From: an uncultured Rhodospirillales bacterium
GTDB lineage: Bacteria > Pseudomonadota > Alphaproteobacteria > ATCC43930 > CGMCC-115725
Length of the DNA: 64,000 nucleotides
NCBI GenBank assembly: GCA_903923205.1
Contig: CAIXXC010000476.1
Span: 1-64,000, forward strand
Reading direction: 5' to 3'
Shown: positions 32,750 through 62,337 of the stretch, in pieces
How the letters are laid out: the number at the start of each line of letters is the position of its first letter
Position numbering within the stretch: the stretch's first letter is position 1
Translations under genes and position numbers: made by a program
Notes under the pieces: generated by a model
Database searches by the model: none
The model's input: only the letters and a program-made list of their open reading frames with translations
Told to the model about the DNA's origin: nothing

Positions 32750-32763
32750 TAACTATATGATTT

Positions 32764-32811
32764 TAGAGCAAAATGTGATTTGATGATTCCATCGAATCAC
32801 ATTTTGCTCTA
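32764..32811. repeat. Second hairpin of a REP-like pair, overlapping a stop codon
   Basis: A 17-base perfect inverted repeat starting TAGAGCAAAATG (32764-32780 / 32795-32811) continues through a T-G pair and GATG/CATC to a four-base loop, about 22 pairs in all. Its right end contains the stop codon of the minus-strand desaturase fusion. It could act as a two-way transcription stop between convergent genes or be a mobile palindrome; part of the same arm (TTAGAGCAAAAT) also occurs at 26846-26857 after infC. Confidence 0.75.
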
Positions 32812-34674
32812 GAGGTCCAGAACCAGGCGCTGCGATACCGCCCGCGACACGCAGACTGTCATCTGGCTGTTTAGGTCACGCTCTGCGTCGCTGAGCACTG
32901 AGTCCCGGTGCTCGGGCACGCCGGCAAGCACCGGGGTCAGGCACGAGCCGCAGATCCCTTGCGTGCAGGTGCAGATCACGGCCACGTTGTTGGCATGGAG
33001 GACGTCCAGCAGGTTCTCGTCCGCAGCCACGGTCAGTACCCGCTTGCTGCGTGCCAGTTCGACTTCGAAGGGACGGTTCTCGGTCTTTGTGCTGGCACGG
33101 GGGATGAACGTCTCGGAAAAGATGGATTTATCCGGCCATCCGAGGCGACGGGCTCCCTCGATCACACAAGCCATGAATCCGGTCGGGCCACAAACATAGA
33201 GCGCCGCGCCGGGGCTGCATTCCCTGGCGATCGCCGCTGCCCGCGCGCGGTTGCTGCCGTCGCCATGATCGAGATGGATTTGCACCTGATCGCCGAACCA
33301 TCCCTCAAGCTGCTTGTGGAATGGCACGCGCGCGTGATCGCGGGCAAATGCGTGCAGAATAAAGGGCTGCTTGCCGTGGTTCAGTGCATGCGCCATGGCC
33401 AGCAGTGGGGTCAGTCCGATTCCACCGGCGATCAGCACGTGACGGGTATGGCTCGGTGACAGCGGAAAGTGATTGCGTGGCGCACTGACCCGCAACGGGC
33501 TGCCGATCTTGACCTCCTCATGCAACCGCCGCGATGCGCCGCGGCCATTGGCCTCGCGTTTGACCGCGATCCGGTACCGATTGCGCTCGGTCGGGTGGTT
33601 GCAGAGCGAGTATTGCCGGACCAGACCAGGTGCGATCTCGACGTCGATATGGGCGCCTGCGGTGAAGTCGGGCCAGACCTTCTGTCCGCTCGGCTCGAGA
33701 TCGAAGGCGATGATATCAGTGGCAACCGGGGTCAATGCAGTCACGCGGGCATCGAGCCAGGTTGCGGCCTCGCCACGGTCCGGCAGGACAAGATCACGGG
33801 TTTCCGTGAAGAGCGTGCGTGTCGGAATACCTTGCGCCTCGAACAGATGACGTCCGATCTGCCAGGCCTCGTGATAGCGATAGAACGGCAGGGACGGGGC
33901 AAAGTGGTGGACACAATGCTTGGCCTGACCCAGCAGCAGTACACGCAACCAGGGTGGCGCCAGCAATCGTACGGTCGTCTGAAACGGCGCTTCCTCCCAG
34001 GTGACATGGGCCGGGTGCTGAATGTGGGCAAACAGGAACGCGACGCCGAACATGCCAAGGCGTTGCGGGATCAGCCAGCACAGCAGGAATTCGCGCCAGT
34101 AAGGCGAACTCAGCCACACCACGTGCAGCAGGACATAGAACGCAACGGAAGCGGCAAAGACGCGGCGCTCGCTTTTGGGGCGTTGTGACCAGCGTGCGGC
34201 GTACCACCGGATCCAGACGACATCGATCCCGCCCAGAATGAACGGTAACTGCCAGAACGGTGCCGTCACCATGATATCGTCGGGGTCCCGTGTCGGTGAA
34301 CCGGTGTGGCGATGATGTTCGAGATGAAGGTAGCGATAGCTTCCCGTCGTGATCCCCGGGATCAGCAGGAGACAGGATATCGACCCCAGAACATCGTTGA
34401 GCATCCGGTTGCCCGAGAGCGACCGGTGGGTAGCGTCGTGCAACGGCGTGAACGAGAGATAGACAGCGAAGCCATTGATCAACATCATCGCCGGCCAGGG
34501 CAGGAGTCCGTGGAGAAATCCCGCCGTGCCCAGCCCGAACAAGGCGAAGGCCGCGATGATAAGACCGATCTCCAGCGGCGCTATCACGGGAATAGTCGTC
34601 AGCGGGCGAAAGCGCGGGTCGCGGACCACCTGCTCCAGAACTTCCCGGGTCGATGTGCTGAACGCGAAACCCAT
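32809..34674 (-). CDS. Fatty-acid-desaturase / oxidoreductase / ferredoxin fusion
   Basis: Single 621-residue polypeptide carrying an oxygenase and its own electron chain. Residues about 1-290 form a membrane desaturase/hydroxylase domain with three His boxes: HDATH (79-83), HLEHH (117-121) and HCVHH (253-257), plus four or so membrane stretches. Residues about 305-520 form a flavin reductase with RQYS (353-356), the NAD(P) loop GGIGLTPL (417-424) and CGPTGF (495-500). Residues about 535-621 form a plant-type ferredoxin with Cys570, 575, 578 and 608 as 2Fe-2S ligands. ATG 34674 has GGGAG upstream; upstream in-frame codons run through the promoter. Substrate (acyl chain, alkane or other lipid) is unknown. 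Confidence 0.9.
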   Translation of the reverse strand: MGFAFSTSTREVLEQVVRDPRFRPLTTIPVIAPLEIGLIIAAFALFGLGTAGFLHGLLPWPAMMLINGFAVYLSFTPLHDATHRSLSGNRMLNDVLGSISCLLLIPGITTGSYRYLHLEHHRHTGSPTRDPDDIMVTAPFWQLPFILGGIDVVWIRWYAARWSQRPKSERRVFAASVAFYVLLHVVWLSSPYWREFLLCWLIPQRLGMFGVAFLFAHIQHPAHVTWEEAPFQTTVRLLAPPWLRVLLLGQAKHCVHHFAPSLPFYRYHEAWQIGRHLFEAQGIPTRTLFTETRDLVLPDRGEAATWLDARVTALTPVATDIIAFDLEPSGQKVWPDFTAGAHIDVEIAPGLVRQYSLCNHPTERNRYRIAVKREANGRGASRRLHEEVKIGSPLRVSAPRNHFPLSPSHTRHVLIAGGIGLTPLLAMAHALNHGKQPFILHAFARDHARVPFHKQLEGWFGDQVQIHLDHGDGSNRARAAAIARECSPGAALYVCGPTGFMACVIEGARRLGWPDKSIFSETFIPRASTKTENRPFEVELARSKRVLTVAADENLLDVLHANNVAVICTCTQGICGSCLTPVLAGVPEHRDSVLSDAERDLNSQMTVCVSRAVSQRLVLDL

Positions 34675-34690: not shown

Positions 34691-34730
34691 GTCGAATTCT
34701 TATAGTGTGAGTACACAATAAGAATTCGAC
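34691..34730. promoter_or_regulatory. 40-base palindromic operator of the desaturase fusion gene
   Basis: GTCGAATTCTTAT (34691-34703) and ATAAGAATTCGAC (34718-34730) are perfect reverse complements. Between them, GTGT and ACAC add four more pairs around GAGT, with one A-A mismatch on each side. It covers the predicted -10 box of the fusion gene, the usual placing for a repressor such as a TetR-family protein. Confidence 0.75.
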
Positions 34731-34742
34731 CCTGTTTGTCAA
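34715..34742 (-). promoter_or_regulatory. Sigma70-type promoter of the desaturase fusion gene
   Basis: Read on the minus strand: TTGACA (34742-34737), 16 bases, TATTGT (34720-34715). The predicted start of transcription is about 30-35 bases before the ATG at 34674. Confidence 0.6.
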
Positions 34743-34779: not shown

Positions 34780-35343
34780 TCAGCGGGTGAGTGCTGCCTC
34801 GATAGCAGCGGTCAGTCGGGACGATGTTGGCCCTACCATCGATGGATACCAGGCGATAAGCCGGCCATCTCGACCAATCAGATATTTGTGGAAATTCCAG
34901 GCTGGCGCCCCGCCCGGTCCGGAGGCACCTCTCGCCCAGTGAAAGAGCGCGTGGGCCTCGTCGCCGCTGACGACTTGCTTGGCCAGAAGAGGGAAGGTGA
35001 CCCCATAGCGGACCTGGCAGAAATTCTGGATGTCCGCGTTTGGTTTGGGGTCCTGGCCGCCGAAATCATTGGAGGGCACCCCCAAGACGACGAGGCCGCG
35101 ATCCTTGAAGCGATCCGAGAGTTCCTGCAGCCCCGCGTACTGGCCTGTGAAGCCGCAGGCGGATGCCGTATTGACCACCAAAACGACCTTGCCGCGCAGG
35201 CTCTCAGGGGCGATCTGGGAGCCGTCGATCGCGGGCAGAGGCAGACTGGCCCAGTCGATTGGCGCCGCGCCAGCCTCGACGCCGGGTTTTGCGAGTCCAG
35301 CCGAAACCGCCAGGGTGCTGATGAGATCAAGAAGCTTTGCCAT
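34780..35343 (-). CDS. Glutathione peroxidase-like thiol peroxidase
   Basis: Reduces hydroperoxides with glutathione or thioredoxin. The ATG at 35343 with GAGG upstream gives 187 residues. A hydrophobic N-terminus (about 1-20, LLDLISTLAVSAGLA) could be a signal or anchor, so location is uncertain. Peroxidatic Cys63 sits in NTASACGFTGQY; GVPSNDFGGQDP and the C-terminal WNFHKYLIGRDG, with the Trp/Asn partners, are conserved. The residue at the selenocysteine site is Cys. It lies 16 bases downstream of gspK on the same strand and may be read through from it. Confidence 0.88.
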   Translation of the reverse strand: MAKLLDLISTLAVSAGLAKPGVEAGAAPIDWASLPLPAIDGSQIAPESLRGKVVLVVNTASACGFTGQYAGLQELSDRFKDRGLVVLGVPSNDFGGQDPKPNADIQNFCQVRYGVTFPLLAKQVVSGDEAHALFHWARGASGPGGAPAWNFHKYLIGRDGRLIAWYPSMVGPTSSRLTAAIEAALTR

Positions 35344-35359
35344 CAAAGGCCTCAAATTG

Positions 35360-36370
35360 TCATTGTCTGCGTTGTACGCGTTCTTCATCGCGCAAGATCA
35401 CGTAGACCGGATCATCCGTTCCCACGATGCGGACAACGGACCGGCGGATGGCTTCGCGGCCCTTGTCAAGTTCGACGACTGCCGTGATCGAGAGGGCATG
35501 GCCGATGATGCCGCCGGTAACTGGAGGACCGCCGGGGCCGGCGCCCGCCGCAGGTGCCGCAGGTGTCGCTGGCGCGCCGGGGCTCGCGCTTGATCCGATG
35601 GTGGTCTGGCCTGGTGGCGGCGAATAGGGAATGCCCTTGTCACGCCCCGCGATGACATCGATGGCTTTCTGGCGGTCGAGACCCGGCAGGGTCATCAACG
35701 CAGCAAGCGGGGCCGTGGCGGGATCGATATCTTTTCGGCCGGAATAGACGGTGATACCCGACGCAATCTGGTCGTAGACCTCAGCCGTCATGCCATCGAC
35801 AAGACGCAACTCATCGATGGTCTGAAACGGTCCATGACGACTATGATAGGCGTAGCCAAGTCCCACGTATTCAACCGGAACGATATTGTCCTTGGCGGAA
35901 ACCTTGGGGTTCGAGCGCCAGTCGATGATGTGGTTCGTCAGATCCTCGATATCGGCGCCGCTGAGATCGGTCGTCTTCAACAAGGCTGTCAGCGTATCCT
36001 TGCTGGCGAGGTTGATATCGACCTTGCCCGTCTCGTCCTGGATCGAAACGGTGATGACATGTCCATCGAAGCGAATGTTTTCCGGGGTGCCGTCGCGGCG
36101 CCAATGCGATTTCCTGGGCTCGGCCAGGGCGTCAGCCCCGGGTTTCTTGGCGATGTCGACGCTAGCAAAGGCGCCGGCCACCGCTCGCGCCAATGCAGCA
36201 TCCTCGATTGCGTTACGGCGCAACGTATCGACCCCGTCATAGGCCTGTCGCTGGGACGCCTTCGAGCCCGCCAGCATCGCCGCTGCGACCACGCCGAGGA
36301 TCATGACCGCCCACAGCACAAGGAGCAGCGCGAAGCCCCGTTGCTGCGGTGCTGCCGCTGTGTCGGTCAC
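35360..36370 (-). CDS. gspK: GspK, type II secretion minor pseudopilin
   Basis: Tip pseudopilin with GspI and GspJ. It has a GTG start at 36370 and 336 residues. The prepilin leader and hydrophobic helix are at RGFALLLVLWAVMILGVVAAA (cleavage after Gly12, mature Phe13; the GspK +5 position is not Glu, as usual). The body has the DKVDINLAS-like KVDINLASKDTL motif and SAM-like GLDRQKAIDVIAGRD. Residues about 255-295 are a Pro/Ala/Gly-rich insertion (PGAPATPAAPAAGAGPGGPP). Here gspK is last in the operon, after gspD, rather than after gspJ. Confidence 0.93.
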   Translation of the reverse strand: MTDTAAAPQQRGFALLLVLWAVMILGVVAAAMLAGSKASQRQAYDGVDTLRRNAIEDAALARAVAGAFASVDIAKKPGADALAEPRKSHWRRDGTPENIRFDGHVITVSIQDETGKVDINLASKDTLTALLKTTDLSGADIEDLTNHIIDWRSNPKVSAKDNIVPVEYVGLGYAYHSRHGPFQTIDELRLVDGMTAEVYDQIASGITVYSGRKDIDPATAPLAALMTLPGLDRQKAIDVIAGRDKGIPYSPPPGQTTIGSSASPGAPATPAAPAAGAGPGGPPVTGGIIGHALSITAVVELDKGREAIRRSVVRIVGTDDPVYVILRDEERVQRRQ

Positions 36371-47054: not shown

Positions 47055-48440
47055 TTAGCCGGCATCCTCGTAGCCTACATAGCTCATCATGCCGGTCACC
47101 ATGTGATACAGGTGATGACAATGCAGCGGCCAATGGCCGGGATTATCGGCATCGAAAGCCACGGTGACGCGCGCCATTGCCGGTACGATCACGGTGTCGC
47201 GCACGGCGCCCTTTATCGATGTGCCATTGATCGCGACGACTTGGAAGCTGTGGCCATGAAGATGGATCGGATGCGTCATCATTGACGCGTTTTCCAGCAC
47301 GATTTCGACCCTCTCCCCCGATTTCACCCGCAAGGGGCGATCGCTGACCATCGCCCAGGAATAGGGAGCCATCGACCCGGTAAGCTTCAGTGCGAAGCGC
47401 CGATCTGCCGGCTTTGGGACCAGAGGGAATCGCGCCCGCAGAAGGCGTTCAACGTCGAGCCCGACAACAGCGCCCCGGGTAGCGCCGCGCACGGGCAGCT
47501 TGCCGATGGCAGCGCCGGCCGTCGCCAGGACGATACCTCCACGCTCCCGCCCACCTTCACGAAGGGCAAGGATTGGGAAGGACCCTCCTCCACTCGGTAA
47601 ATCCACAACGACATCGATCCGCTGCCCCATCGCGATCGGGAACATGTGGCCATTCAGGGGTTCGACGGGGTGGCCGTCGACCGCGACCAGGGTTCCGATT
47701 GGTTTGCCGGTCGTGATGGTGAACGCGGTACCGGTCGCGCCGTTGATGATTCTCAGGCGGACGCGCCCGCGCTTCTCAACACGGACAATCTGAGGATCGG
47801 CCAATGTTCGGTCGTTGGCGAGATAGGCATCGTAATCAATGTCGTTGAGATCGGTGCCCGACATGCTCATCCCCGACATGTCCATCCCCGACATGTCCAT
47901 CCCACCTGATGTCGGCTTGCCTATGAGAGTCGCCAGAAGTTGTGGGGCGGGGGTGAACGAGAAGTCGTGAAGCAGGATGACAATCTCCTGCTCATCGCGC
48001 GTCCGGTCTTCGGAGGTGTGGATGATCAGCGGCGCCGCTAGCAGGTTCTGCTCCTGAAGGGTGTGGGCATGCATCCAGTTCGTGCCACCGCGCGCAAGCG
48101 GAAAGCTGTAGGCGCGCTTTTCTCCTGGTTGGAGCATTGGCTTGGGATTATCCGGCACCCCATCCATCGGCCAGGGGGGTGTCAGGCCGTGCCAGTGAAT
48201 AAGGGTCGCTTGATCCAGGCGATTGGCGAGCCTGAGGTTGAAACCGCTAGCGGCATCAAGGATGAGCCCCTGCGTCCCGTCAGGCTGGGTAAGGCCGAAG
48301 ACTTTGGCCGCCTTGCCGTTGATATCCAGCGTGCGGCTGACAATATCGAGGCGCCTTGCGGCTTCGCCCGCGAGAACGGCAGGTGCCACGAGGGCGGCAG
48401 CACCGGCTGCCAGAGACCTCAGGAAATCGCGACGCCTCAT
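47055..48440 (-). CDS. Multicopper oxidase, Tat-exported
   Basis: Periplasmic or secreted laccase/CopA/CueO-like oxidase. I start at ATG 48440 because MRRRDFLRSLAAGAAALVAPAVLA is a textbook twin-arginine signal; 461 residues. Copper ligands are HWHGLTPP, HAHTLQEQ, HPIHLHGHSFQV and HCHHLYHM in the expected order. A Met-rich stretch GMDMSGMDMSGMSMSG (about residues 180-195), encoded by a 15-base tandem repeat, may bind copper. Convergent with gspO, nine bases apart. Confidence 0.92.
   Translation of the reverse strand: MRRRDFLRSLAAGAAALVAPAVLAGEAARRLDIVSRTLDINGKAAKVFGLTQPDGTQGLILDAASGFNLRLANRLDQATLIHWHGLTPPWPMDGVPDNPKPMLQPGEKRAYSFPLARGGTNWMHAHTLQEQNLLAAPLIIHTSEDRTRDEQEIVILLHDFSFTPAPQLLATLIGKPTSGGMDMSGMDMSGMSMSGTDLNDIDYDAYLANDRTLADPQIVRVEKRGRVRLRIINGATGTAFTITTGKPIGTLVAVDGHPVEPLNGHMFPIAMGQRIDVVVDLPSGGGSFPILALREGGRERGGIVLATAGAAIGKLPVRGATRGAVVGLDVERLLRARFPLVPKPADRRFALKLTGSMAPYSWAMVSDRPLRVKSGERVEIVLENASMMTHPIHLHGHSFQVVAINGTSIKGAVRDTVIVPAMARVTVAFDADNPGHWPLHCHHLYHMVTGMMSYVGYEDAG
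47857..47901. repeat. Three 15-base tandem repeats in the multicopper oxidase gene
   Basis: Units CCCGACATGCTCATC, CCCGACATGTCCATC and CCCGACATGTCCATC run head to tail, coding the Met-rich SGMDM/SGMSM stretch on the minus strand. The in-frame unit length suggests slippage could change the number of Met groups. Confidence 0.85.
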
Positions 48441-48462
48441 GCCCTCTGCTCCGCTATTTGGG

Positions 48463-49239
48463 TCAACTCGCCGATAGCCCGCCATCCAGCTTCAGCTCCG
48501 ATCCTGTCATGAAACGACTTTCGTCCGAAGCAAGGTATATCGCCGCATGGCCGACATCCGACGGGTCGCCGAGGCGGCCCAAGGGCACCTGCTTTGCCAA
48601 TTTCTCGTAAAGCTCCTCCGTGGCCCCCTTGGGCGAAAGGTCGTTCAGGATCGGTGTCTTGATGAAGGCCGGATGGATGGAGTTGCTGCGAATATCCAGC
48701 CGCAGCCGGGCGCAGTGCAGGGCAACGGATTTGCTCAACAGCCACACTGCCGCCTTGGAGGCATTATAGGCGGCAAGGTTGTGGCCGGCGACGAGGCCCG
48801 AGATGGACGAGATATTGATGATCGAGCCCGGCTGATGATCGCGCATCACGCGCAAGGCCGACTTGATGCCGAAGAACACGCTGTCGCTGTTCACTTTCAT
48901 GCAGCGGTCCCAGTCGTCGAGTGACAGGGACTCAACCGACCCCATCACCGCGATCCCGGCATTATTGACCAGCACATTGATGCCGCTCATCGCCGCATCC
49001 GCCGCGCTGACGACCTCGTCCCAGCGCGCGGCATCGGTGACGTCATGGCCGAAGGCGAAGGCAATCTCGCGCCCGTGTTCGGCATTGAGGGCGGCGGCGG
49101 TTGCGCGGGCACCTTCCTCATTGCGGTCGGTCAGGGTGACGATGGCACCCTCGGCGGCCATCATTCGCCCGATCGTCGCGCCCAGCCCCTGCGCGCCGCC
49201 CGTGATCAATGCCTTTTTGCCCTTCAACCGATCCACCAT
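48463..49239 (-). CDS. Classical SDR oxidoreductase
   Basis: NAD(P)-dependent dehydrogenase of 258 residues; GGGAGA precedes the ATG. Cofactor loop ITGGAQGLGATIG near 12, NNAGIAV near 90, the catalytic Ser in ISSISG near 142 and YNASK near 156 are intact. It is close to the 3-hydroxysteroid/3-alpha,20-beta dehydrogenase type, but the substrate is unknown. Its stop is 22 bases upstream of the multicopper oxidase start. Confidence 0.88.
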   Translation of the reverse strand: MVDRLKGKKALITGGAQGLGATIGRMMAAEGAIVTLTDRNEEGARATAAALNAEHGREIAFAFGHDVTDAARWDEVVSAADAAMSGINVLVNNAGIAVMGSVESLSLDDWDRCMKVNSDSVFFGIKSALRVMRDHQPGSIINISSISGLVAGHNLAAYNASKAAVWLLSKSVALHCARLRLDIRSNSIHPAFIKTPILNDLSPKGATEELYEKLAKQVPLGRLGDPSDVGHAAIYLASDESRFMTGSELKLDGGLSAS

Positions 49240-49406
49240 GCCCTTGATCTCCCGTTATCAGTGCCCCGGCGCTTGCCACGCCTTGGGCCGTTTCTGTCCG
49301 GCGCAGAGCTTAGCGCCGTCAGGGGGCGGGCGGAAAGGGGCATCAACGCGCACCAAATCTTGCTAGGATCGACACAACCGCCCGTCTGTCCAAACCGGAT
49401 TTTCCG

Positions 49407-50339
49407 ATGACCTCCATTCCCATCGCCATCCCTCAACTGCCTGACGCGATGCGTGCGCGCTGGCCATATCGGCCATTGTTTGCCGCGGTCAACGGCTGGC
49501 GCATGCATTATGTCGATGAAGGCGATCCTTCGGACGACCCCATCGTCCTGCTGCACGGCAATCCAACCTGGGGGTTCCTCTATCGCGACATCATCCCGCC
49601 CCTGGTTGCGGCCGGATTCAGGGTGATCGTCCCCGATATGATCGGCTTCGGGCTGTCGGAAAAGCCTGTGCGCGAACAGGCGCATTCGCTTGACGGCCAT
49701 ATCGCCAATCTGACCGGTCTCATGCGTCAGCTTGGCCTCTCCCGCATCAACCTCGTCTGTCACGATTGGGGCGGACCGACGGGGCTGGGCTTCGCGCTTT
49801 CCAATCTGGCGATGATGCGTTCCCTGGTCATCATGAGCACCTGGGCATGGCCGACGCCGCCCGCCGAATTCCACACTCGAATCTTTCCGTGGCGAACAAT
49901 GCATGCCCCGCTGGTCGGACCCTATCTGCTGGGCCGACACGGCGCATTGGTGGGACGCGGCATGTATCTTTCCGTCGTCGATCGACAGAAATTCCGCGCC
50001 GAGGCGCAGCTGGCTTATGAGAGCATGCTGCCCGATCCCGCGACACGGCTGCTGACCTGGGCATGGCCGCGCTGGATCCCGCTCGACGATCAGGCCCGTG
50101 CCTATGATCGCTTCACCTGGCTGGAGCAGGAGCTTGGCAAATGCAGTTTGCCAGCCTTGATCATCTGGGGCCGTGAGGATGATGTCTTCGATGCCGCGAC
50201 CTTTTCCGCCCGCTTCAAGACGCTGCTGCCCCATGCCGAGGGGCCGTTGCTGGTAACGGGCCGACATTTTGTTCAAGAAGATTCCAGCCCGGAGATCGCC
50301 GCCGCCGTGCTTGATTTTATCGGAAGGTTGCCCGCATGA
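49407..50339 (+). CDS. Haloalkane dehalogenase-like alpha/beta hydrolase
   Basis: 310-residue hydrolase whose nucleophile is Asp120 in CHDWGG, as in haloalkane dehalogenases and epoxide hydrolases. Asn52 in HGNPTW and Trp121 after the nucleophile match the pair that holds the halide in haloalkane dehalogenases, which favours that activity. The base His is in TGRHFVQED near 289. The Shine-Dalgarno is weak. It diverges from the SDR at 49239 and shares ATGA with the next gene. Confidence 0.82.
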   Translation: MTSIPIAIPQLPDAMRARWPYRPLFAAVNGWRMHYVDEGDPSDDPIVLLHGNPTWGFLYRDIIPPLVAAGFRVIVPDMIGFGLSEKPVREQAHSLDGHIANLTGLMRQLGLSRINLVCHDWGGPTGLGFALSNLAMMRSLVIMSTWAWPTPPAEFHTRIFPWRTMHAPLVGPYLLGRHGALVGRGMYLSVVDRQKFRAEAQLAYESMLPDPATRLLTWAWPRWIPLDDQARAYDRFTWLEQELGKCSLPALIIWGREDDVFDAATFSARFKTLLPHAEGPLLVTGRHFVQEDSSPEIAAAVLDFIGRLPA

Positions 50340-50734
50340 GCACGCTGCGCATCATCCCGCCACCGCCGCTTGACGAGACCCGCCTTGCCTACCTTCTGGC
50401 AGAGGACCGGCTTGGCCATTATCCCGAGTTCCGCGAATTCTTCTCCAGCGCCTTCGATCTTGAGCGTATCGGTCTTGCACAGCCGGGTTATGTTGAGGCC
50501 ACTTCGGGTGCGATCTACGCTCTCGTCTTCATTGGCAGGAGTGGTGAGGCTTTTCCTGCCGGGGTGGAGATATATGCCGTGGTCCCCGCGCTGGAGCCGC
50601 TTGACGAGATGCAGGTGGATCGCGACCTGTGGGCGATATTGCGCTGGATGATGGAAGGCATCGGCGGCGCTTGGTCCGCCGCAAAACTCGACGCGACGGG
50701 CAAGCTCTACAAGCTTGCCGTCGCAGAACAGTAA
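50336..50734 (+). CDS. Uncharacterised 132-residue protein
   Basis: No family recognised. It is a soluble, acidic-to-neutral protein with no signal or membrane span. An N-terminal IIPPPPLDETRLAYLLAEDRLGHYPEFREFF is followed by a hydrophobic middle (IYALVFIGRSGEAFPAGVEIYAVVP) and a helical end (LWAILRWMMEGIGGAWSAAKLDATGKLYKLAV). The ATGA overlap with the dehalogenase-like gene implies joint translation and a shared function. Confidence 0.75.
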   Translation: MSTLRIIPPPPLDETRLAYLLAEDRLGHYPEFREFFSSAFDLERIGLAQPGYVEATSGAIYALVFIGRSGEAFPAGVEIYAVVPALEPLDEMQVDRDLWAILRWMMEGIGGAWSAAKLDATGKLYKLAVAEQ

Positions 50735-50746
50735 TCGCGCTTTCTA

Positions 50747-52273
50747 TTATCGCGAGGCGTTGCGTTGCGCAATGAAGCGGGCGGCGACGTGGCTCGCCCA
50801 GGCGGCGATGGTCAGCGACGGCGGGCCGCCCGGTTCGGCTGGCAGAGCAGCGGCGTCCGCGACGTAAAGGCCGGGATGATCGAAGACCTCGCCATTGCCA
50901 TCGACAACGGCGGTTGCGATGCTGTCGCCCATGCAGGCACCGCCGGTCGGGTGCACGGTAATCGGGTTCTTCGTGTAATGGATGCGCTTGCCGGTCAGCT
51001 CGACGAGGGCGCGGACCCCGGCCTTGATGCGGGCAAAGACGGGGCTGTTGTCGCCGTTGAAATCGACCCGCAAGCCGCCGCCCGTCCAGCGTGCGACGCC
51101 GTCCATCGCATCGACGCCGATGCCGGCGATCCATTGCACCCGTCGCAGGCGCTGTTTCAGGAAATGCGGCAGCGGATAGCGGTCGATGGCCGGAAAGGCA
51201 CCGCCGCCAAGCACGGGGAAGTCTTCCGGTCCACGGGCGCGAAACGGCCCCCGGGCCGGTAGTCCGGCGGTGATATCGCCATATTCAGCCTGATCCCACC
51301 AGCCCATGAAATCGCCGTTGCAGCCGAAACGCCGACCAAGGTTGGGCATGCCCGACAGGGTTTTCGTGCCGTCGCGGCTGCGCAGCAGCAGGCGCAGAGT
51401 GTTGAGGCCGCCTGCGGCGATAATGACATTGGCGGCGAGCAGGCGTTGTTTTGCCCCGCTGTGATGGTCGATGACATGAACGGCATAGCGCGCCGGGCTT
51501 TGATCGCCGAGCGCTTCGATCGATTGAACCTCGCAGAGGTCGCGGATTTTGAGCCCTTTGCGCATCGCCGGTATCAGATACGCGATATCGAGCGAGGTCT
51601 TGCCGCCGCCGGGAGAGCCGAGGAATCCGTCGTCGTTGGCGGCGACATCGACCTGATTGCGGGTAATGCCGTTGGCATCGATGATTGTCTGCGGTTTGCC
51701 GGGTTCCGCGGGAAAGAGAAACCCGAGCCAGGTCGGCCCTTCCGGCGATGGTGTTTCGATCACGTTGGAATTGGCGTAACGCTGATATGTTGTGTTCGGC
51801 AAGCCGAGGGCCGGGCTTGCCATGGGTGAGCCCATATCCGCCAGGACCGCCTCATAATGCTGCTGCAGGCTGGCGGTTGAGACATCCTTGGCATGGCCAT
51901 CCCAGAAATTGGCGACATGGGGTAGTCGTTGCAGGCCGGAATAAACGTGGCTGCCGCCGCCGACATTGGACGAGCAGATGATGCTGACGCCGCGATCGAC
52001 ATGAATGTCGAACAGGCCATGCCTGTTCAAGGTCAGACGGGGACTGCCGGGCAGGCGAAGGCTGCGCAGGAGCCGCGTGAACAGCGAGAGATCACGCGGG
52101 AAGGGCGTTGTTCGGGCGATTCCGGCTGAGCGCGTGGCCACCGTGTCGCGCCACGGGCCACGCTCCAGGAGTGTCACCGCAATCCCGGCATCGGTCAGGC
52201 GTGACGCGGCGACGGCACCGCCAAAGCCGCTGCCGATCACGATGACATCGATTACGGCGGATGTTTCGTCCAC
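50747..52273 (-). CDS. GMC-family FAD oxidoreductase (cholesterol oxidase-like)
   Basis: FAD enzyme that oxidises an alcohol, perhaps a sterol-type one. I start at GTG 52273 because a strong GGGAGAGGG lies just upstream; a TTG at 52318 extends the frame but has no ribosome site. 508 residues. FAD loop VIVIGSGFGGAVAASRL near residue 10, GGGSHVYSGL near 105, IIAAGGLNTLRLLLRS near 285, and the C-terminal HPTGGACMG and DAAALPAEPGGPPSLTIAA blocks. No signal peptide is visible. Convergent with the 132-residue gene. Confidence 0.85.
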   Translation of the reverse strand: MDETSAVIDVIVIGSGFGGAVAASRLTDAGIAVTLLERGPWRDTVATRSAGIARTTPFPRDLSLFTRLLRSLRLPGSPRLTLNRHGLFDIHVDRGVSIICSSNVGGGSHVYSGLQRLPHVANFWDGHAKDVSTASLQQHYEAVLADMGSPMASPALGLPNTTYQRYANSNVIETPSPEGPTWLGFLFPAEPGKPQTIIDANGITRNQVDVAANDDGFLGSPGGGKTSLDIAYLIPAMRKGLKIRDLCEVQSIEALGDQSPARYAVHVIDHHSGAKQRLLAANVIIAAGGLNTLRLLLRSRDGTKTLSGMPNLGRRFGCNGDFMGWWDQAEYGDITAGLPARGPFRARGPEDFPVLGGGAFPAIDRYPLPHFLKQRLRRVQWIAGIGVDAMDGVARWTGGGLRVDFNGDNSPVFARIKAGVRALVELTGKRIHYTKNPITVHPTGGACMGDSIATAVVDGNGEVFDHPGLYVADAAALPAEPGGPPSLTIAAWASHVAARFIAQRNASR

Positions 52274-52414
52274 GCGACCCTCTCCCCCCCCTGCCGGCCT
52301 GGATGCGTCCGGTTTCAACTCGCTTGACTATGGCGTTCAGGCATCGACCCGTCAACGCGAGGGCTTGCAGGTAGAAGTCATTGAAATCATAGTGCTTGCC
52401 GCATCACGGGAAAA

Positions 52415-52428
52415 CTTGATTAATCAAG
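52415..52428. promoter_or_regulatory. Perfect 14-base palindrome in the GMC/HbpS divergent gap
   Basis: CTTGATTAATCAAG lies 38 bases before the HbpS/GlcG gene start and 142 bases before the GMC start. Its length and position suit a dimeric regulator; no regulator gene is adjacent. Confidence 0.4.
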
Positions 52429-52465
52429 ACTGAAGAAGTCGGCAGAGCCCGAGGGGAGGGAAACG

Positions 52466-52909
52466 ATGCGCGAGATCACGCTCAAGGAAATTCGTAAAAT
52501 GCTGAAGGCGGCAAACAAGACCGCCGAGAAGGCCGGTAAGCCGAGCACGATCGCCATCGTCGATTTCGGCGGGCATCTGCGCGGGCTGGAGCGCCCGGAA
52601 GGCGGGCGCATCGCGAATGTCGATATCGCCACCAAGAAAGCCTGGACTGCGATCGCGTTCAAGCGTCCAACCGAGATGGTCCGTGCCATGACCTTGCCCG
52701 ATGGTCCCGCCTATGGTTTGCAGCACACGGATGAACGGATCTGCATCGTCGCAGGCGGGTTCCCGATTGTGGAAAAGGGTGCCTTCCTCGGCGGCATCGG
52801 CACGAGCGGCGGAACCCTGCAGGAAGATATCGACTGCTGCCTCGACGCCCTGAAGGCCGCAGGCTTCGACACCGAATTCGCCAATCCGAACCCGGTTGCG
52901 ACGAAGTAG
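52466..52909 (+). CDS. HbpS/GlcG-type small protein
   Basis: 147-residue protein of the GlcG/HbpS fold, whose members bind haem or cobalamin or accompany oxidoreductases. GGGGAGGGAAA precedes the ATG. Signature parts are STIAIVDFGGHLRGLER, IATKKAWTAIAFKRPT and VAGGFPIVEKGAFLGGIGTSGGTLQEDIDCC near 92-125. No signal peptide. It stands alone between the GMC and Rieske genes, convergent with the latter. Confidence 0.88.
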   Translation: MREITLKEIRKMLKAANKTAEKAGKPSTIAIVDFGGHLRGLERPEGGRIANVDIATKKAWTAIAFKRPTEMVRAMTLPDGPAYGLQHTDERICIVAGGFPIVEKGAFLGGIGTSGGTLQEDIDCCLDALKAAGFDTEFANPNPVATK

Positions 52910-52922
52910 CTTCGTGGATGTA

Positions 52923-52951
52923 GCCCTCCCTCCCTTGGTGGCAGGGAGGGC
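52923..52951. terminator. Possible two-way hairpin between HbpS-like and Rieske genes
   Basis: GCCCTCCCT (52923-52931) and AGGGAGGGC (52943-52951) form a nine-pair GC-rich stem with an 11-base loop between convergent genes. No T-run follows on either strand, so termination is only suggested. Confidence 0.4.
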
Positions 52952-52967
52952 GCTTATCTCACCGGCG

Positions 52968-54230
52968 CTAAGCCAGCGCCTCGGCCACCGTCCTTGCCTT
53001 CACCCATTTATCGACGTGGTGAAGGCTGTGGCGGATCATGACTTCGCCGTCCTGCAACTGCATGAAGGGAAACGCACCGGATTCGATGCCGCGCTGGGTG
53101 CGTTCGGTGTTGGTCACGTCTTCCAGCAGGATTTCGGCGATCCGGGCGACATAGAGTTCCTGCTGCAGGCGCTCGCGGGCGGTGGTGGCGTCCGGGATGT
53201 GGAATTCGGCTTCCCAGCGGGTTGAATTCGGGCTCACGGGCCAGAAGCGATGCGACCAGAAACCACCCGGTGATAGGTCGATCTGGAAGTTCGGGAAGGC
53301 CCAGGTGACGTCGACGGCCCAATGCTGCGAGCGGCTCGGGTTGACGGCGGGATGGGCAAGGAATGCCTCCATCGCGCCCTTCTGCGCCGCGCCCAGCACG
53401 TTGCCGGTATCGATATTGGCATAGGCCATCTGCTCGACCCTGGCGTGGGTCGGCGGCGCGTAATCGGGATTGCCGAAGGTCGAGACCTGGCGATGCGGCC
53501 CCCAGAATTCGGCGCTGATCGGACGCGAGAACGGGTTGACCCGGTTTGCGAAGGTTGAACCGATCGTCGCCGGGTGGATGCAGGGGATGTGGTAGGTCTC
53601 GGCGAAGGCGTCGGCGATGACCTTCCAGTTGGCGTTGAGATGAGCCTCGAACAGGATCGACTTGGTGGCGTTGCCCCAGACCATGTTGGTAAAGGCCTGA
53701 CCAAAACCGCCCAGGTACGTCTCCAGCGAAACCTCCGGCTCGGGCTGGTGGTTGATGAAAATCCAGCCCTCCCAGACCGCCGTCGCGATCGGCCTCAGGC
53801 CGCATGTCTTTTTGTTAACAGAGAAGAAATTGGCCTCGTCCGGGATGCCGAGCAAGCCGCCATCATTGCGATAGGTCCAGCCGTGATAGCCGCAGGAAAA
53901 CCGCGCTGCCTTGCCCTTGGCCTCAAGCACGACCTGGTTCCCGCGATGGGCGCAGACATTGTAGAAGGCCTGGATATGGTCTTTGCTGTCGCGCGTGACG
54001 ACGATGGGCGCGTTCCAGATTTCGATGTTCTTGGTGACGAAACTGCCGGGCTCAGGCAGTTGCTCGACCCGGCCGATCGTCAGCCAAGCGCGTTTGAAAA
54101 GATTTTCGCGCTCAAGTTCGAAATATTCCGGCGAATAATAGGGGTAGGAGGGCACAGGGCCTGTGTCGAGGCCGGCCATGCGGGTGATATCGCTGGCGCA
54201 GATATCCGTGATCTTGGGCATGTCGTTCAT
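52968..54230 (-). CDS. Rieske ring-hydroxylating oxygenase alpha subunit, copy 1
   Basis: Oxygenase component with a Rieske 2Fe-2S centre and a mononuclear iron site. I start at ATG 54230 (MNDMPKITDI), 420 residues; ATG 54221 is an alternative. Cluster ligands are Cys93-x-His95 (CAHRGN) and Cys113-x2-His116 (CGYHGW). Iron ligands are His213 and His218 in ETYHIPCIHP with the acid probably further along; Glu210 takes the place of the bridging Asp. It ends the minus-strand operon FAH-monooxygenase-SDR-small protein-Rieske, and is paralogous along its whole length to the gene at 58202. No reductase or ferredoxin is in the operon. Confidence 0.93.
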   Translation of the reverse strand: MNDMPKITDICASDITRMAGLDTGPVPSYPYYSPEYFELERENLFKRAWLTIGRVEQLPEPGSFVTKNIEIWNAPIVVTRDSKDHIQAFYNVCAHRGNQVVLEAKGKAARFSCGYHGWTYRNDGGLLGIPDEANFFSVNKKTCGLRPIATAVWEGWIFINHQPEPEVSLETYLGGFGQAFTNMVWGNATKSILFEAHLNANWKVIADAFAETYHIPCIHPATIGSTFANRVNPFSRPISAEFWGPHRQVSTFGNPDYAPPTHARVEQMAYANIDTGNVLGAAQKGAMEAFLAHPAVNPSRSQHWAVDVTWAFPNFQIDLSPGGFWSHRFWPVSPNSTRWEAEFHIPDATTARERLQQELYVARIAEILLEDVTNTERTQRGIESGAFPFMQLQDGEVMIRHSLHHVDKWVKARTVAEALA

Positions 54231-54246
54231 GGCGTCACACTGTCCT

Positions 54247-54630
54247 TCAAGCAACGGGCTGAGGCCCGCGAAGGATGCGGATCTTGTGCGGGTAGGGAGA
54301 GCGCGGCGCGCGGGGCATGCGGTGCAACTCGACCGCCATCGCCGCCTGGGCAAGGGCGAGGAGCAGTTGATAAAGCCGCAATGTCGGCCCCGGCAGGGCG
54401 GTCAGCGAATGCTGATCGACATGGCTCAGGATAGCTTCCGAGCGGACGAGCATCTTGTCGTAGAAATACTGGATTTCGGCCATGCCGTGGCGGGCGCGGA
54501 TGTCCCAGCGCGCGTCGGCGCTCTCGCCAAGCCAGTCGGGGATGAATTCCAGCAGGTCCTCGAACCCGGCGGGCAGGATCGGCTCATCCGTCGTTTCGCT
54601 GGTCCGCTTGATCGCGGCGGATGTCACCAT
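54247..54630 (-). CDS. Small protein partnered with Rieske oxygenase, copy 1
   Basis: 127 residues, no family recognised. TAGGAGA stands before the ATG at 54630. After a polar N-terminus of about 20 residues, the protein looks wholly helical: GFEDLLEFIPDWLGE, MAEIQYFYDKMLVRSEAIL, LRLYQLLLALAQAAMAVELHRMP. It ends in a Pro/Arg tail (RAPRSPYPHKIRILRGPQP). It aligns without gaps to the protein at 59455-59802; by hand I count 46 identities in 108 positions. It is not an NTF2-fold beta subunit by length or pattern. It lies 16 bases before the Rieske gene. Confidence 0.85.
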   Translation of the reverse strand: MVTSAAIKRTSETTDEPILPAGFEDLLEFIPDWLGESADARWDIRARHGMAEIQYFYDKMLVRSEAILSHVDQHSLTALPGPTLRLYQLLLALAQAAMAVELHRMPRAPRSPYPHKIRILRGPQPVA

Positions 54631-54640
54631 CTCGGGTCTC

Positions 54641-55399
54641 CTATTTCGCGGTATAGCCGCCATCGACCGGGATCGCGGCACCGGTGATGAACGAGGCGTG
54701 ATCCGACAGCAGCCAGACGGCTGCCGTTGCAATTTCCGGCGGGGCGGCGAGGCGGCCGATCGGTTGCTGATCGATCAGGTATTGCTCCAGCCCCGGCGCG
54801 TTCGCCATCGCGCCAACCAGCATAGGCGTCAATGTCGCGCCGGGCAGGATCGCGTTGACGCGGATACCACGGGTACCGTAGTCGAGCGCGCCCGCCTTGG
54901 TCAGGCCGATAACGGCATGCTTGCTGGTGACGTATTCCGCTGCGGCGGGAAAGGCGGTAACGCCCGCCGCCGAGGAAGTGTTGACGATCGAGCCGCCGCC
55001 GGTTTTCAGCATGGCGGCGATCTCATGTTTCATGCAGAAGAACGTCCCCGTCACGTTGATGTCCAGCGCGCGGCGAAAGGTCTCGGCGGTCAATTCGTGC
55101 AGGATGGCGCTGCTTTGCGGGATGGCGGCGTTGTTGAAGGCACCATCGAGCCGACCATAGGCTCTGACGGCGGCTTCCACCATCGCCTCGACCTCGGCTT
55201 CGACCGCGATGTTGGTGCGGATGAATTGCGCGATTCCGCCGGTCTGACCAATCAGGCCGACGGTCTCCTCGCCGCCGGGGATGCCGATATCGGCGATCGT
55301 GATCAGGGCACCCGCCTTGGCCGCCAGCAACGCGGCCTCACGACCCATGCCGCTGCCGCCGCCGGTAACGATGATCGACTTACCCTTGAGATCGTACAT
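54641..55399 (-). CDS. SDR oxidoreductase of Rieske module 1
   Basis: 252-residue NAD(P)-dependent dehydrogenase. VTGGGSGMGREAA near 11, NNAAIPQ near 88, the catalytic NTSSAAG near 140, YVTSK near 156 and PVDGGYTAK at the end. In Rieske pathways an SDR usually rearomatises the cis-dihydrodiol; that role is inferred here. It lies 10 bases before the small protein gene. Confidence 0.88.
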   Translation of the reverse strand: MYDLKGKSIIVTGGGSGMGREAALLAAKAGALITIADIGIPGGEETVGLIGQTGGIAQFIRTNIAVEAEVEAMVEAAVRAYGRLDGAFNNAAIPQSSAILHELTAETFRRALDINVTGTFFCMKHEIAAMLKTGGGSIVNTSSAAGVTAFPAAAEYVTSKHAVIGLTKAGALDYGTRGIRVNAILPGATLTPMLVGAMANAPGLEQYLIDQQPIGRLAAPPEIATAAVWLLSDHASFITGAAIPVDGGYTAK

Positions 55400-55426
55400 C
55401 CCGCGTTTCCTCGTGTTTTCTTATGG

Positions 55427-57052
55427 TCAAAGAGCCGCGCCGGTCACGCGGGCCAGCAGGGCGTCGAGATCGCCGGGCAGATCATCGCCGCGCCACGCGA
55501 CATGCTGATCCGGGCGCACCAGCAACAGGTTGCGTTCATAGATCGGTCGCAAATCGGGTCGGTCGAGGCGAAGCACGCTGAGCGGCACACCGCGCTTGGT
55601 CGCGGTCGCTTCGATTGCTGCGGTGTCGGAATCGCCAAGCACCACCAGGGTAAAGTACAGGCCGAGCCGGTCATGGATGCGTATCCCATCGGCGAGGAAG
55701 ACATGGGGCAGCCGCGCGCCCGGCCAGGTCGACGGGCGATAGGTGATCGGATCGACGGGGGGCGGGGAATCCTCCGCGACGATGATCGGCGAGCCGTCAT
55801 AGCGATAGCCAAGCTCGACGCCCCAGGATTCGTTTTCGATATTGCCGAGCGCCGCGATTTTCCGCCCCGCTTCCGCGCGCCTGGCCTCGGCCTCAGGCCC
55901 CAGGCCGTCAAGATCACCGGCTTGGGCGAAAACGCCGCCGATCTCCATGCGCACGCCCATGTGACGCTGCGACGCCTGGAGATGCCACCACGCGGTCGGG
56001 CGGCGCTCCAGATCATGGGCGATGAGCAAATTTTTGCCGCCCCATCCCTCGATCCGGGCGGTCAGCATCCAGGCAAGGCCGATGGCGTCGGCAATCCCGG
56101 AATTCATGCCGTAGCCGCCTGTGGGCACGAACTGGTGGGCGGCGTCCCCCGCAAGAATTACCCGGTCCCTGCCATAGGATTGGGCGACGACGAAATGCGC
56201 GGCCCAGGGGTTGGCCTGGAGAATTTCATACTCGAACTTGGTCCCGGCCCAATCTTCAAGCAGGTCTTCGGGGCGCAACTGCGCCGGGTCCATGCCGGGG
56301 AAAAGCCAGCGCTGTAGGGTCCAGGTATCCTTGTCGTTCTGGGCGATCAAGGTGCCGGTGGCGCTCTGGTAGTGCCAGGCGATACCCCAGCGGTTGAGCA
56401 CGTCAAGCGCGGTTGAGCGGAAATGCACCATATAGGCACCGGCGACTTCAAACTGGCCGTCCATCTCGATGCCCAGTTCACGGCGCACGGTGCTGCCGCC
56501 GCCATCGCAACCGGCGAGGAACTGACTGCGCACCAGGATCGGCGCGCCATCGCGCGCGCGGATTTCCGAGGTCACCCCGCTCTCGTCCTGCTCGACGATC
56601 CGCTCGAACGCGGTGCCGAAGCGGACATCGATCAGCGTATTGGCGTCGACCGCAGTTTTCAGCACCGGCTCTATGACGATCTGGCTCACGCGAAGGCCGG
56701 GCTCGCTGGCCTGGCTGCCATCATTGCGCAAGGCGATCCGGGTGCGGGCATCGTTGGCCGAGGGGTAGTTGAAGCGATGCAACTCGTGGCCGGCAAAGCT
56801 GGTGATCCAGGAGATATCGAAGCAATTCTCCCTCGGGACACCGACATCCCGTAACTTGCTCTCAAGCCCCAGGCGATGGAATAACTCCATCGAACGGCCA
56901 TTGGTCAGGTCCATCTTGGGATGGCGCGTCGTGGTCGGGTTGCGCTCGACCAGGATCGAGCGCACGCCGTAGCGTGCGAGCTCAAGCGCGAGGGTCATGC
57001 CGACAGGCCCTGCACCGGAAATCAGGACGGGGGTCTGGAGCGTCTCGGTCAT
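55427..57052 (-). CDS. FAD-dependent aromatic hydroxylase (MhpA/PheA-TfdB type)
   Basis: Flavoprotein monooxygenase of 541 residues. The FAD GxGxxG loop VLISGAGPVGMTLALELARYG starts near residue 9, the DG motif FLAGCDGGGSTVRRELGI is near 182, and the GD motif RVILAGDAAHQFVPTGGYGMNSGIADA near 295. The C-terminal thioredoxin-like extension, with DRPDLRPIYERNLLLVRPDQHVAWRG, matches phenol and 3-(3-hydroxyphenyl)propionate hydroxylases, whose last lines read VLVRPDGHVAWR. It should hydroxylate a phenolic ring. 27 bases upstream of the SDR. Confidence 0.9.
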   Translation of the reverse strand: MTETLQTPVLISGAGPVGMTLALELARYGVRSILVERNPTTTRHPKMDLTNGRSMELFHRLGLESKLRDVGVPRENCFDISWITSFAGHELHRFNYPSANDARTRIALRNDGSQASEPGLRVSQIVIEPVLKTAVDANTLIDVRFGTAFERIVEQDESGVTSEIRARDGAPILVRSQFLAGCDGGGSTVRRELGIEMDGQFEVAGAYMVHFRSTALDVLNRWGIAWHYQSATGTLIAQNDKDTWTLQRWLFPGMDPAQLRPEDLLEDWAGTKFEYEILQANPWAAHFVVAQSYGRDRVILAGDAAHQFVPTGGYGMNSGIADAIGLAWMLTARIEGWGGKNLLIAHDLERRPTAWWHLQASQRHMGVRMEIGGVFAQAGDLDGLGPEAEARRAEAGRKIAALGNIENESWGVELGYRYDGSPIIVAEDSPPPVDPITYRPSTWPGARLPHVFLADGIRIHDRLGLYFTLVVLGDSDTAAIEATATKRGVPLSVLRLDRPDLRPIYERNLLLVRPDQHVAWRGDDLPGDLDALLARVTGAAL

Positions 57053-57124
57053 GCTGTGGGCCTTCTTTGAGCGGGTTCAGCGATCCGGTGATCGCGGGCT
57101 TGGATAATCGCCCTGTTCTCTATC

Positions 57125-57138
57125 GAACCATCTGGTCA
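57125..57138. promoter_or_regulatory. Candidate operator F, upstream of the FAD hydroxylase
   Basis: GAACC-ATCT-GGTCA; the inner part ACCA-TC-TGGT is palindromic. It matches the site at 61758 (GAACCA-N2-TGGTCA). Confidence 0.45.
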
Positions 57139-57143
57139 GGAAC

Positions 57144-57989
57144 TCAGAGCCGACTGACTTCCGCCGCGACCCGGTTTTCAATGGCACCGATCCCGGCAAT
57201 CTCAACCTTCACGATATCGCCTTCGACCAGCCATTTCGGCGGCTTCATCACGGCACCGACGCCTGCCGGGGTACCGGTGAAGATCAGGTCGCCGGGCTCA
57301 AGCGTCATGACCTTGGAGAGGTGTTCGATGATCGCGGCGCAATCGAAGATGAAATACTTGGTATTCGAATGCTGCCGTCGCTCGCCATTGACGTAGGAGC
57401 TGATCTCCAGCGATGACGGGTCAATGGCGTCGCCGGTCACAATCCAGGGGCCGACGGGCGCATGCGTGTCGAAGGATTTGCCCAGGATGAACTGGCTGGT
57501 TTTGAACTGCCAGTCCCGTACTGTCACGTCGTTGCCGACGGCATAGCCGAAGATGACCGAGGCGGCGTCAGCCCGGCTGACATGGCGGCAGCGCTTGCCG
57601 ATGACGATGACCAACTCGGCCTCGTAATCAAGCGCAGTCGAGACTTTCGGCAGGTCAATGGGATCGAACGGGCCGTTGATGGCCGTTGCTGCCTTGGCGA
57701 ACCAAAGCTGCTCGGTCGGCAGTTCCATTGCCGCCTCTGCGGCGTGATCGGCATAGTTCAAGCCAATGGCCATGATCTTGCCGGGACGCTCGACCGGCGA
57801 CAGCAGCTTGACCTCGGCGAGCGGAATGCCGCCTGATGCTGATACAAGCCCGGCGATCCGATCATTCCAGGCGGCGAAGTCGGTGATCAACGCGATCATG
57901 CCGGGCGCATCGGGGATTGGATGAACCGTCTCGCCGGTCACGAGACCGATCCCGGTCTTCCCCTTGTGGCTGTAGCGCGCGACCTTCAT
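57144..57989 (-). CDS. Fumarylacetoacetate hydrolase-family protein
   Basis: 281-residue FAH-superfamily enzyme: cleaves C-C bonds in diketo acids, or hydrates/isomerises ring-cleavage products. GLNYADHAAEA near 72, LDYEAELVIVIGKR near 118 (metal-binding Glu residues), FGYAVGNDVTVRDWQ near 150, KSFDTHAPVGPWIV near 172, and GDLIFTGTPAGVGA near 243. First gene of the minus-strand operon; its promoter overlaps candidate operator B. Confidence 0.93.
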   Translation of the reverse strand: MKVARYSHKGKTGIGLVTGETVHPIPDAPGMIALITDFAAWNDRIAGLVSASGGIPLAEVKLLSPVERPGKIMAIGLNYADHAAEAAMELPTEQLWFAKAATAINGPFDPIDLPKVSTALDYEAELVIVIGKRCRHVSRADAASVIFGYAVGNDVTVRDWQFKTSQFILGKSFDTHAPVGPWIVTGDAIDPSSLEISSYVNGERRQHSNTKYFIFDCAAIIEHLSKVMTLEPGDLIFTGTPAGVGAVMKPPKWLVEGDIVKVEIAGIGAIENRVAAEVSRL

Positions 57990-58047
57990 GACGTCTCTCC
58001 CGTTGCGGCGTTGAGCCTTGTTTTTTGCTGCGGTTTATAGCCTCTGG

Positions 58048-58075
58048 TTTCTAGCCATCCTGAACATTTGGTCAA
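58048..58075 (-). promoter_or_regulatory. Predicted promoter of the FAH-led operon
   Basis: Minus strand TTGACC (58075-58070), 16 bases, TAGAAA (58053-58048). The -35 box lies within operator B. Confidence 0.45.
58061..58074. promoter_or_regulatory. Candidate operator B (FAH side)
   Basis: TGAAC-ATTT-GGTCA, one mismatch from a perfect TGACC-N4-GGTCA palindrome, followed by AGG. Confidence 0.5.
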
Positions 58076-58096
58076 GGCAAAAGCTCCGGGCCGATA

Positions 58097-58125
58097 TTGA
58101 CCACGCGGTCAGTATCAATTAGCTT
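58097..58125 (+). promoter_or_regulatory. Predicted promoter of Rieske module 2
   Basis: TTGACC (58097-58102), 17 bases, TAGCTT (58120-58125), about 75 bases before the start codon at 58202. The -35 box lies within operator C. Confidence 0.4.
58098..58111. promoter_or_regulatory. Candidate operator C (Rieske module 2 side)
   Basis: TGACC-ACGC-GGTCA is a perfect inverted repeat. It is the best copy of the recurrent site. Confidence 0.55.
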
Positions 58126-58201
58126 CCGGCAAAATCTGAAAATTGGCCGGGGCTGCCAGCCCTGCGCGTTGCGTGATCGCGACACCGAAGGGAAACGCTT
58201 A

Positions 58202-59458: not shown

Positions 59459-59802
59459 GCGTGCGGACGACCTTGCCGCTCGGCTTTGCCGATCTTGAGC
59501 CTTTTGTCGAGCAATGGGCCGGTGCGACTGTGGACGCGCGGATGTATGCCCGCGCGAGCGCCGACATGGCGGGCATCCGCCGCTTTTATGAGGTCGCGGT
59601 CGCGCGCGGCGCTGAGGCGCTCGAATACTGCGCCCAATTCCCGCTCGACGCGATGCCGGATGACGCGGCTCTGCTGTTTCGCCTCATGCTCGGCCTGGCC
59701 CAGGCGTCGATTGCGGTCGAAATCCACGGCCAGCCGCGTGCGCCCGGCACGCCCTGGCCCAACTCAATCACCCTGCAGCGCGGCCCCAGCCCCTTCGGCT
59801 GA
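59455..59802 (+). CDS. Small protein partnered with Rieske oxygenase, copy 2
   Basis: 115 residues, no family recognised; about 43 percent identical by hand count to the protein at 54247, without gaps. Conserved points shared by both: GF-x-DL, W-x-G, DAR, M-A-x-I-x2-FY, a LGLAQ/LALAQ-A-x2-AVE-x-H helix and the tail P-x-RAP-x2-P-x-P...RGP-x-P. No signal, no cysteine cluster, no obvious metal site beyond the invariant Glu-x-His in AVExH. It overlaps the Rieske gene by ATGA, so one-to-one synthesis with the alpha subunit is likely. Confidence 0.87.
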   Translation: MSVRTTLPLGFADLEPFVEQWAGATVDARMYARASADMAGIRRFYEVAVARGAEALEYCAQFPLDAMPDDAALLFRLMLGLAQASIAVEIHGQPRAPGTPWPNSITLQRGPSPFG

Positions 59803-59830
59803 TCCGATCCTTCTAAGAGAGAACAATAAA

Positions 59831-60640: not shown

Positions 60641-60643
60641 CCT

Positions 60644-61078: not shown

Positions 61079-61090
61079 GCGTGCCGTTCC

Positions 61091-61678: not shown

Positions 61679-61757
61679 GATGGTTCTCCCGTTGATTTTG
61701 TAGACACCGCACGGTCTTCACGCCGCGAGCGTGATGCGACGGAGACTGGCTCGAATT

Positions 61758-61771
61758 GAACCAAGTGGTCA
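61758..61771. promoter_or_regulatory. Candidate operator D, upstream of the VOC gene
   Basis: GAACC-AAGT-GGTCA, preceded by ATT and followed by AGAA. The minus-strand TTGACC could serve as a -35 box, but the matching -10 is poor. Confidence 0.45.
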
Positions 61772-61819
61772 AGAATAAGCTGGCCCCGGCGGTGCAACTG
61801 CTGCGCCGGAGCCGCTTGA

Positions 61820-62227: not shown

Positions 62228-62323
62228 CTGTCTCTCCCTTGGTTGGCTAAGCCTTTTGATCAAGGCGCTGTTCTCGACCGCAGCCGACGGGCCTCGCGGA
62301 AGCGCCGGCAGGATTGGCCAGAC

Positions 62324-62337
62324 TGACCGAATGATCA
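62324..62337. promoter_or_regulatory. Candidate operator E, between tetR-type and SnoaL genes
   Basis: TGACC-GAAT-GATCA, one mismatch from palindromic, followed by AGGG. Confidence 0.45.

Follow-up and report, generated by a model that had tools for sequence, protein, structure and literature searches.

A putative self-sufficient membrane oxygenase that fuses a di-iron domain to a PDR-type reductase and ferredoxin

We find a single gene that encodes a membrane di-iron oxygenase domain, a flavin- and NAD(P)-binding reductase and a ferredoxin in one chain, within the 64,000-nucleotide stretch of DNA analysed here (the window). Its product is probably, at about 65%, a self-sufficient NAD(P)H-driven membrane monooxygenase of a hydrophobic aliphatic or lipidic substrate. 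'Self-sufficient' appears to be the best reading of a fusion that is conserved in two genera. We give an even chance to the broader proposal that these proteins form an undescribed class, in which a CrtR-like oxygenase with a C-terminal PDR module serves regulated aliphatic oxidation in two genera of different orders. Membrane di-iron desaturases and hydroxylases, which act on unreactive C-H bonds, are hard to study and use, in part because they draw electrons from donors that are proteins apart and often unidentified. A natural one-chain enzyme would offer a defined system in which to measure electron transfer and coupling, and might serve directly as a C-H oxidation biocatalyst.

Architecture of the fusion protein

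The coding sequence runs on the minus strand from an ATG at 34674 to a stop at 32809 (621 amino acids) and has no internal stop; read on the plus strand, 32809–34674 is broken by stops. The open reading frame listing also offers an upstream ATG at 34746 that would give 645 amino acids. We rejected this start, as it shows no conservation. The position at 34674 was preferred because homology to the sister species begins at this Met, a GGGAG ribosome-binding-like stretch lies just before it, and a promoter-like site sits between the two ATGs, downstream of the one at 34746. The parts of the protein are as follows.

32809–34674, minus strand: coding sequence of the oxygenase-PDR fusion, 621 amino acids plus stop (reading frame, sister homology, ten-protein alignment)
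33814–34497, minus strand: membrane di-iron domain of the FA_desaturase superfamily, residues 60–287 (Pfam, E 2.7e-30; CrtR model)
34426–34440, minus strand: His box 1, HDATH, residues 79–83 (both His invariant in 16 sequences)
34312–34326, minus strand: His box 2, HLEHH, residues 117–121 (three His invariant in 16 sequences)
34015–34017, minus strand: His220, candidate for the ninth di-iron ligand (the same in all fused and free-standing relatives aligned)
33904–33918, minus strand: His box 3, HCVHH, residues 253–257 (three His invariant in 16 sequences)
33460–33756, minus strand: predicted FMN-binding domain, residues 307–405, with RQYS at 353 and GRGxS at 377 (Pfam, 2pia, motifs)
33085–33447, minus strand: predicted NAD(P)-binding domain, residues 410–530, with GGIGLTPL at 417 and CGP at 495 (2pia; invariant in ten proteins)
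32812–33069, minus strand: predicted plant-type [2Fe-2S] ferredoxin domain, residues 536–621, with Cys570/575/578/608 (Fer2; Cys invariant; dN/dS)

By alignment, the rear half is a complete PDR/VanB module in the order FMN, NAD and C-terminal plant-type ferredoxin, and it is predicted to carry FMN and a [2Fe-2S] cluster. Pfam places FAD_binding_6 at residues 310–403 (E 2e-6) and Fer2 at 540–612 (E 7e-9), and gives the NAD half only a DmmA-like match just under the cut-off. Residues 9–321 of 2pia (phthalate dioxygenase reductase) align unbroken to 307–621 (E 1e-61), which upholds the VanB-type reductase layout proposed in an initial annotation of this DNA. The reductase halves of the CYP116B-type P450s 6laa and 6kbh align from residue 310 (E 1e-56 for 6laa). 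The RQYS and GGIGLTPL motifs, the three His boxes and the four Cys named in that annotation are likewise all in place.

The same annotation had called the front half desaturase-like. This stands at the level of the superfamily, as the PF00487 gathering score is passed (106.4 bits versus 29.7), while the domain is closer to the CrtR and GntB hydroxylase models than to DesA. Homology extends over residues about 18–290. H79, H83, H117, H120, H121, H220, H253, H256 and H257 are invariant across 16 sequences (ten fusions and six free-standing relatives); by analogy with SCD1-type enzymes, we take His220 as the putative ninth ligand. Hydropathy alone, a weak test, gives peaks at 22–75, 90–113, 134–153, 170–192 and 196–216, around the His boxes. 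The best NCBIfam match is the CrtR model (BCarotHydoxCrtR, NF045688; E 2.5e-28 over 32–294), with 99 bits against a cut-off of 475. GntB is matched over nearly its full length (E 6e-12), and the DesA model NF052548 over 61 residues (E 4e-5; 22.8 bits versus a cut-off of 500). Both hydroxylase models, CrtR and GntB, are matched by every one of the 16 front domains; the scores of the window's protein lie far under the cut-offs. AlkB was absent from the NCBIfam and PDB hits of the fusion protein; we therefore rejected an AlkB identity, as neither an AlkB model nor a solved AlkB structure matched. A search of solved structures with a desaturase profile returned nothing relevant, and a structure prediction from a two-row alignment was uninformative (mean pLDDT 39.7). 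By its model matches, the front half is closest to CrtR/GntB-type hydroxylases and not to DesA or AlkB. Since it lies closer to hydroxylases than to fatty-acid desaturases, hydroxylation is likelier than desaturation. Its family does not give the substrate, because the CrtR and GntB scores fall far under their cut-offs and AlkB is unmatched.

Recurrence, selection and origin

The same fusion occurs in a sister species (a separate MAG, contig CAIUCF010000800.1) at 84% identity. It also occurs in a second genus (g54) from a different order of the same class, where all six genomes carry it, in eight copies with 39–42% identity over nearly the whole length. An alignment of these ten proteins (window, sister and eight g54 copies) keeps R353/Y355/S356 (RxYS), G417–G420 (GGIG), C495-G496-P497, the four ferredoxin Cys and every His ligand invariant. 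Because nine further proteins show the same domain order in one frame with invariant ligands, the fusion is neither chance nor an assembly error. It bears out the annotated single frame of oxygenase, reductase and ferredoxin. The window assembly is fragmented (541 contigs), which might have let a sequencing or assembly error join two genes; this is vanishingly improbable, since end-to-end alignments show the fusion again in the sister MAG, and eight more times in six other genomes. A frameshift or chimera is ruled out by the single frame recurring in independent genomes, and the reading as two separate genes fails.

Between the window and sister species, dN/dS is 0.085 for the front domain, 0.225 for the FMN/NAD part and 0.04 for the ferredoxin. 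All domains are thus under purifying selection, and the low values in the FMN/NAD and ferredoxin parts indicate that the electron chain itself is under selection.

The joined oxygenase-PDR form seems rare. Sampling of 41 more genomes from the order, some 380 from the class and some 397 from the phylum revealed no other end-to-end fusion; these overlapping sets were searched with one query and E-value cut-offs, and in the two larger ones the top three candidates of each genome were scored. The plasmids searched held no full-length fusion and the viral contigs searched no fusion. Our literature search found no earlier account of the architecture; most subscription journals lay outside its coverage, so an earlier report is conceivable. 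Proteins related to the front half stand alone in family f20 (genomes of 1–2 Mb), where 14 copies at 32–38% identity occur in 10 genomes and none is fused. As these nearest free-standing relatives have no fused reductase, the clade as a whole does not depend on the fusion.

The reductase tree, which compares the ten fused halves with 42 other PDR-type reductases, groups the ten in a single branch (support 91/86) and agrees with a single origin of the fusion. The desaturase tree unites the fusions and the f20 solo proteins in one supported clade (100/99). It places the f20 proteins beside the second genus, and one fusion clade is not rejected (AU p 0.19). Given this placement, fission in f20 or two separate fusions would also be possible.

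Comparison with known enzymes

The fusion most probably works like CYP116B enzymes (P450RhF type; 6laa, 6kbh) without being a member of that family. In both, the oxygenase is at the N-terminus, the FMN and NAD(P) domains come next and the [2Fe-2S] domain is at the C-terminus, and the reductase aligns end to end. The oxygenase of CYP116B is a soluble haem P450, whereas that of the fusion is a membrane di-iron domain, and Pfam finds no P450 domain in the front half, which places the protein outside CYP116B. One such enzyme, CYP116B305, needs no partners: either NADPH or NADH supports the oxidation of its substrate (PMC12126322).

Three-domain AlkB, an active single-chain enzyme made up of ferredoxin, ferredoxin reductase and AlkB (PMC8918992), likewise joins a membrane di-iron oxygenase to both carriers; its carriers are N-terminal, whereas those of the fusion are C-terminal. 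PDR/VanB (2pia) resembles the whole C-terminal half, with the same cofactor motifs, but exists as a protein of its own, a partner of soluble Rieske oxygenases. Among curated models, those of the beta-carotene hydroxylase CrtR and the arginine hydroxylase GntB come nearest to the front half, at nearly full length, although their models include no reductase and the fusion scores far under their cut-offs. Cytochrome b5-fused desaturases are also desaturase-superfamily enzymes with a donor domain of their own (PMC8918992), but they carry haem b5 only and still need a reductase, whereas flavin and [2Fe-2S] in the fusion would complete the chain. A 2022 review, citing work from 2001, states that ferredoxin-fused desaturases had not been found (PMC8918992). 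Because three-domain AlkB with N-terminal carriers is known and no ferredoxin-fused desaturase is recorded there, we regard the fusion as a variant architecture, one that adds an arrangement reported as missing among desaturases (PMC8918992).

Gene context, proposed function and alternatives

Three features upstream of the fusion bear on its expression.

34715–34742, minus strand: sigma-70-like promoter, TTGACA (34742–34737), 16 nt, TATTGT (34720–34715) (sequence; same hexamers in the sister)
34691–34730, no strand assigned: probable operator, a palindrome of 40 bp that overlaps the -10, with the core TTCTTATTGTG-N6-CACWATAAGAA (core unique per genome)
34780–35388, minus strand: neighbouring glutathione-peroxidase gene, gpx (adjacency kept in the sister; probably a separate transcript)

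The sister species has a 50-bp palindrome with the common core TTCTTATTGTG-N6-CACWATAAGAA, and a search that tolerated up to three mismatches located this core at a single site in the genome of each species. The palindrome is probably a dedicated, fusion-specific operator, and the gene in the window genus would have its own promoter, between gpx and the fusion. Immediately downstream of the gene, at 32755–32808 of the window, lies a hairpin-forming palindrome (AGCAAAATGTGATT...AATCACATTTTGCT), which is absent from 200 bases of the corresponding gap in the sister. In both species, cydAB converge on the fusion, and gpx and then type II secretion genes lie behind it. These neighbours say nothing of an alkane. 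Elsewhere in the window, 47055–63960 is a catabolic-looking cluster with Rieske ring-hydroxylating alpha subunits (52968–54230, minus strand; 58202–59458, plus strand), SDRs, an FAD ring hydroxylase, an FAA hydrolase, a GMC oxidoreductase, a multicopper oxidase and a CoA-transferase; no PDR reductase of its own was seen in it. A CYP153-like P450 (56% identity) is encoded in the window's genome on another contig.

In g54, the genes close to type 1 fusions include a CYP153 (7ant, E 3e-206) and a [2Fe-2S] ferredoxin. A GMC alcohol dehydrogenase gene stands in divergent orientation to these fusions, and one copy has an aldehyde dehydrogenase directly downstream. The conserved type 1 neighbourhood also holds an MMPL exporter, DUF1329, DUF1302 and YCF48-like genes (L073, 7071–19501; L075, 2598–13191). 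The neighbourhood as a whole is suggestive of hydrocarbon uptake and oxidation. Type 2 fusions stand directly behind a TetR gene (loci L072, L074 and L076). A conserved palindrome, ATAACACTGTTAT, separates tetR from them and is a probable TetR operator. The CYP153, ferredoxin and dehydrogenases beside type 1 and the TetR beside type 2 thus favour regulated oxidation of an aliphatic, alkane-type compound.

We propose that NAD(P)H would reduce FMN in the PDR-type domain, which would hand on electrons singly to the ferredoxin domain with its [2Fe-2S] cluster. This in turn would reduce the nine-histidine di-iron centre of the N-terminal membrane domain, which would activate O2 and, within the membrane, hydroxylate a hydrophobic aliphatic substrate of alkyl, terpenoid or lipidic type. 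The gene's own promoter, under its dedicated operator, would drive expression in the window genus. We infer the FMN and cluster content, this electron path, hydroxylation over desaturation, the substrate class, the regulation and the activity. In favour of this proposal are the single frame with its domains, the ten fusions in two genera of different orders, the invariant ligands, dN/dS, the reductase branch, the CYP116B module order, the hydroxylase-like front and, in g54, the CYP153 and TetR contexts. Against it count the lack of a fused reductase in the nearest f20 relatives, the fact that the CYP153 context belongs to the second genus and not to the window, and the uninformative structure prediction.

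Glutathione peroxidases related to gpx can reduce lipid hydroperoxides in other organisms. The conserved gpx neighbour and cydAB suggest an O2 or stress setting, and together with the FA_desaturase superfamily match they leave a minor but real chance that the protein is a fatty-acid or membrane-lipid desaturase, or an UndB-like decarboxylase, whose built-in donor serves membrane adaptation and not hydrocarbon breakdown. This fits poorly with the short DesA match set against a CrtR match across the whole domain, with the patchy distribution of the fusion, and with g54 copies that accompany CYP153 and dehydrogenases or follow TetR, unlike housekeeping lipid genes. PDR modules serve Rieske oxygenases, and two Rieske alpha subunits lie 18–25 kb from the fusion (53–59 kb of the window). 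The reductase half might then mainly serve such oxygenases in trans, with the desaturase-like domain incidental; a CYP116B reductase domain can pass electrons between molecules (PMC12126322). We consider this improbable, because the fusion has its own unique promoter palindrome, its nine His are invariant and dN/dS is low in the front domain as well as in the ferredoxin.

The CrtR model, as the best NCBIfam match and one shared by 16 of 16 family members, raises the idea of a beta-carotene ring hydroxylase with a fused donor. Beta-carotene hydroxylation by the fusion is very unlikely: the score is far below the cut-off, the crt cluster found in the window genus is of the acyclic, spirilloxanthin type, and the six g54 genomes have no crtI above the cut-off. 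The window-genus genes concerned are crtI, crtB, crtC and crtD together with a polyprenyl synthase, next to bch genes; the window's genome has pufL/M near a crtI, and the sister has crtI, crtB, crtC and crtD with bch genes. As a separate observation, gene content marks the host genus as phototrophic, with pufL/M, bchI/D/O and spirilloxanthin-type crt (L102, G000:C481; L103, G018:C595).
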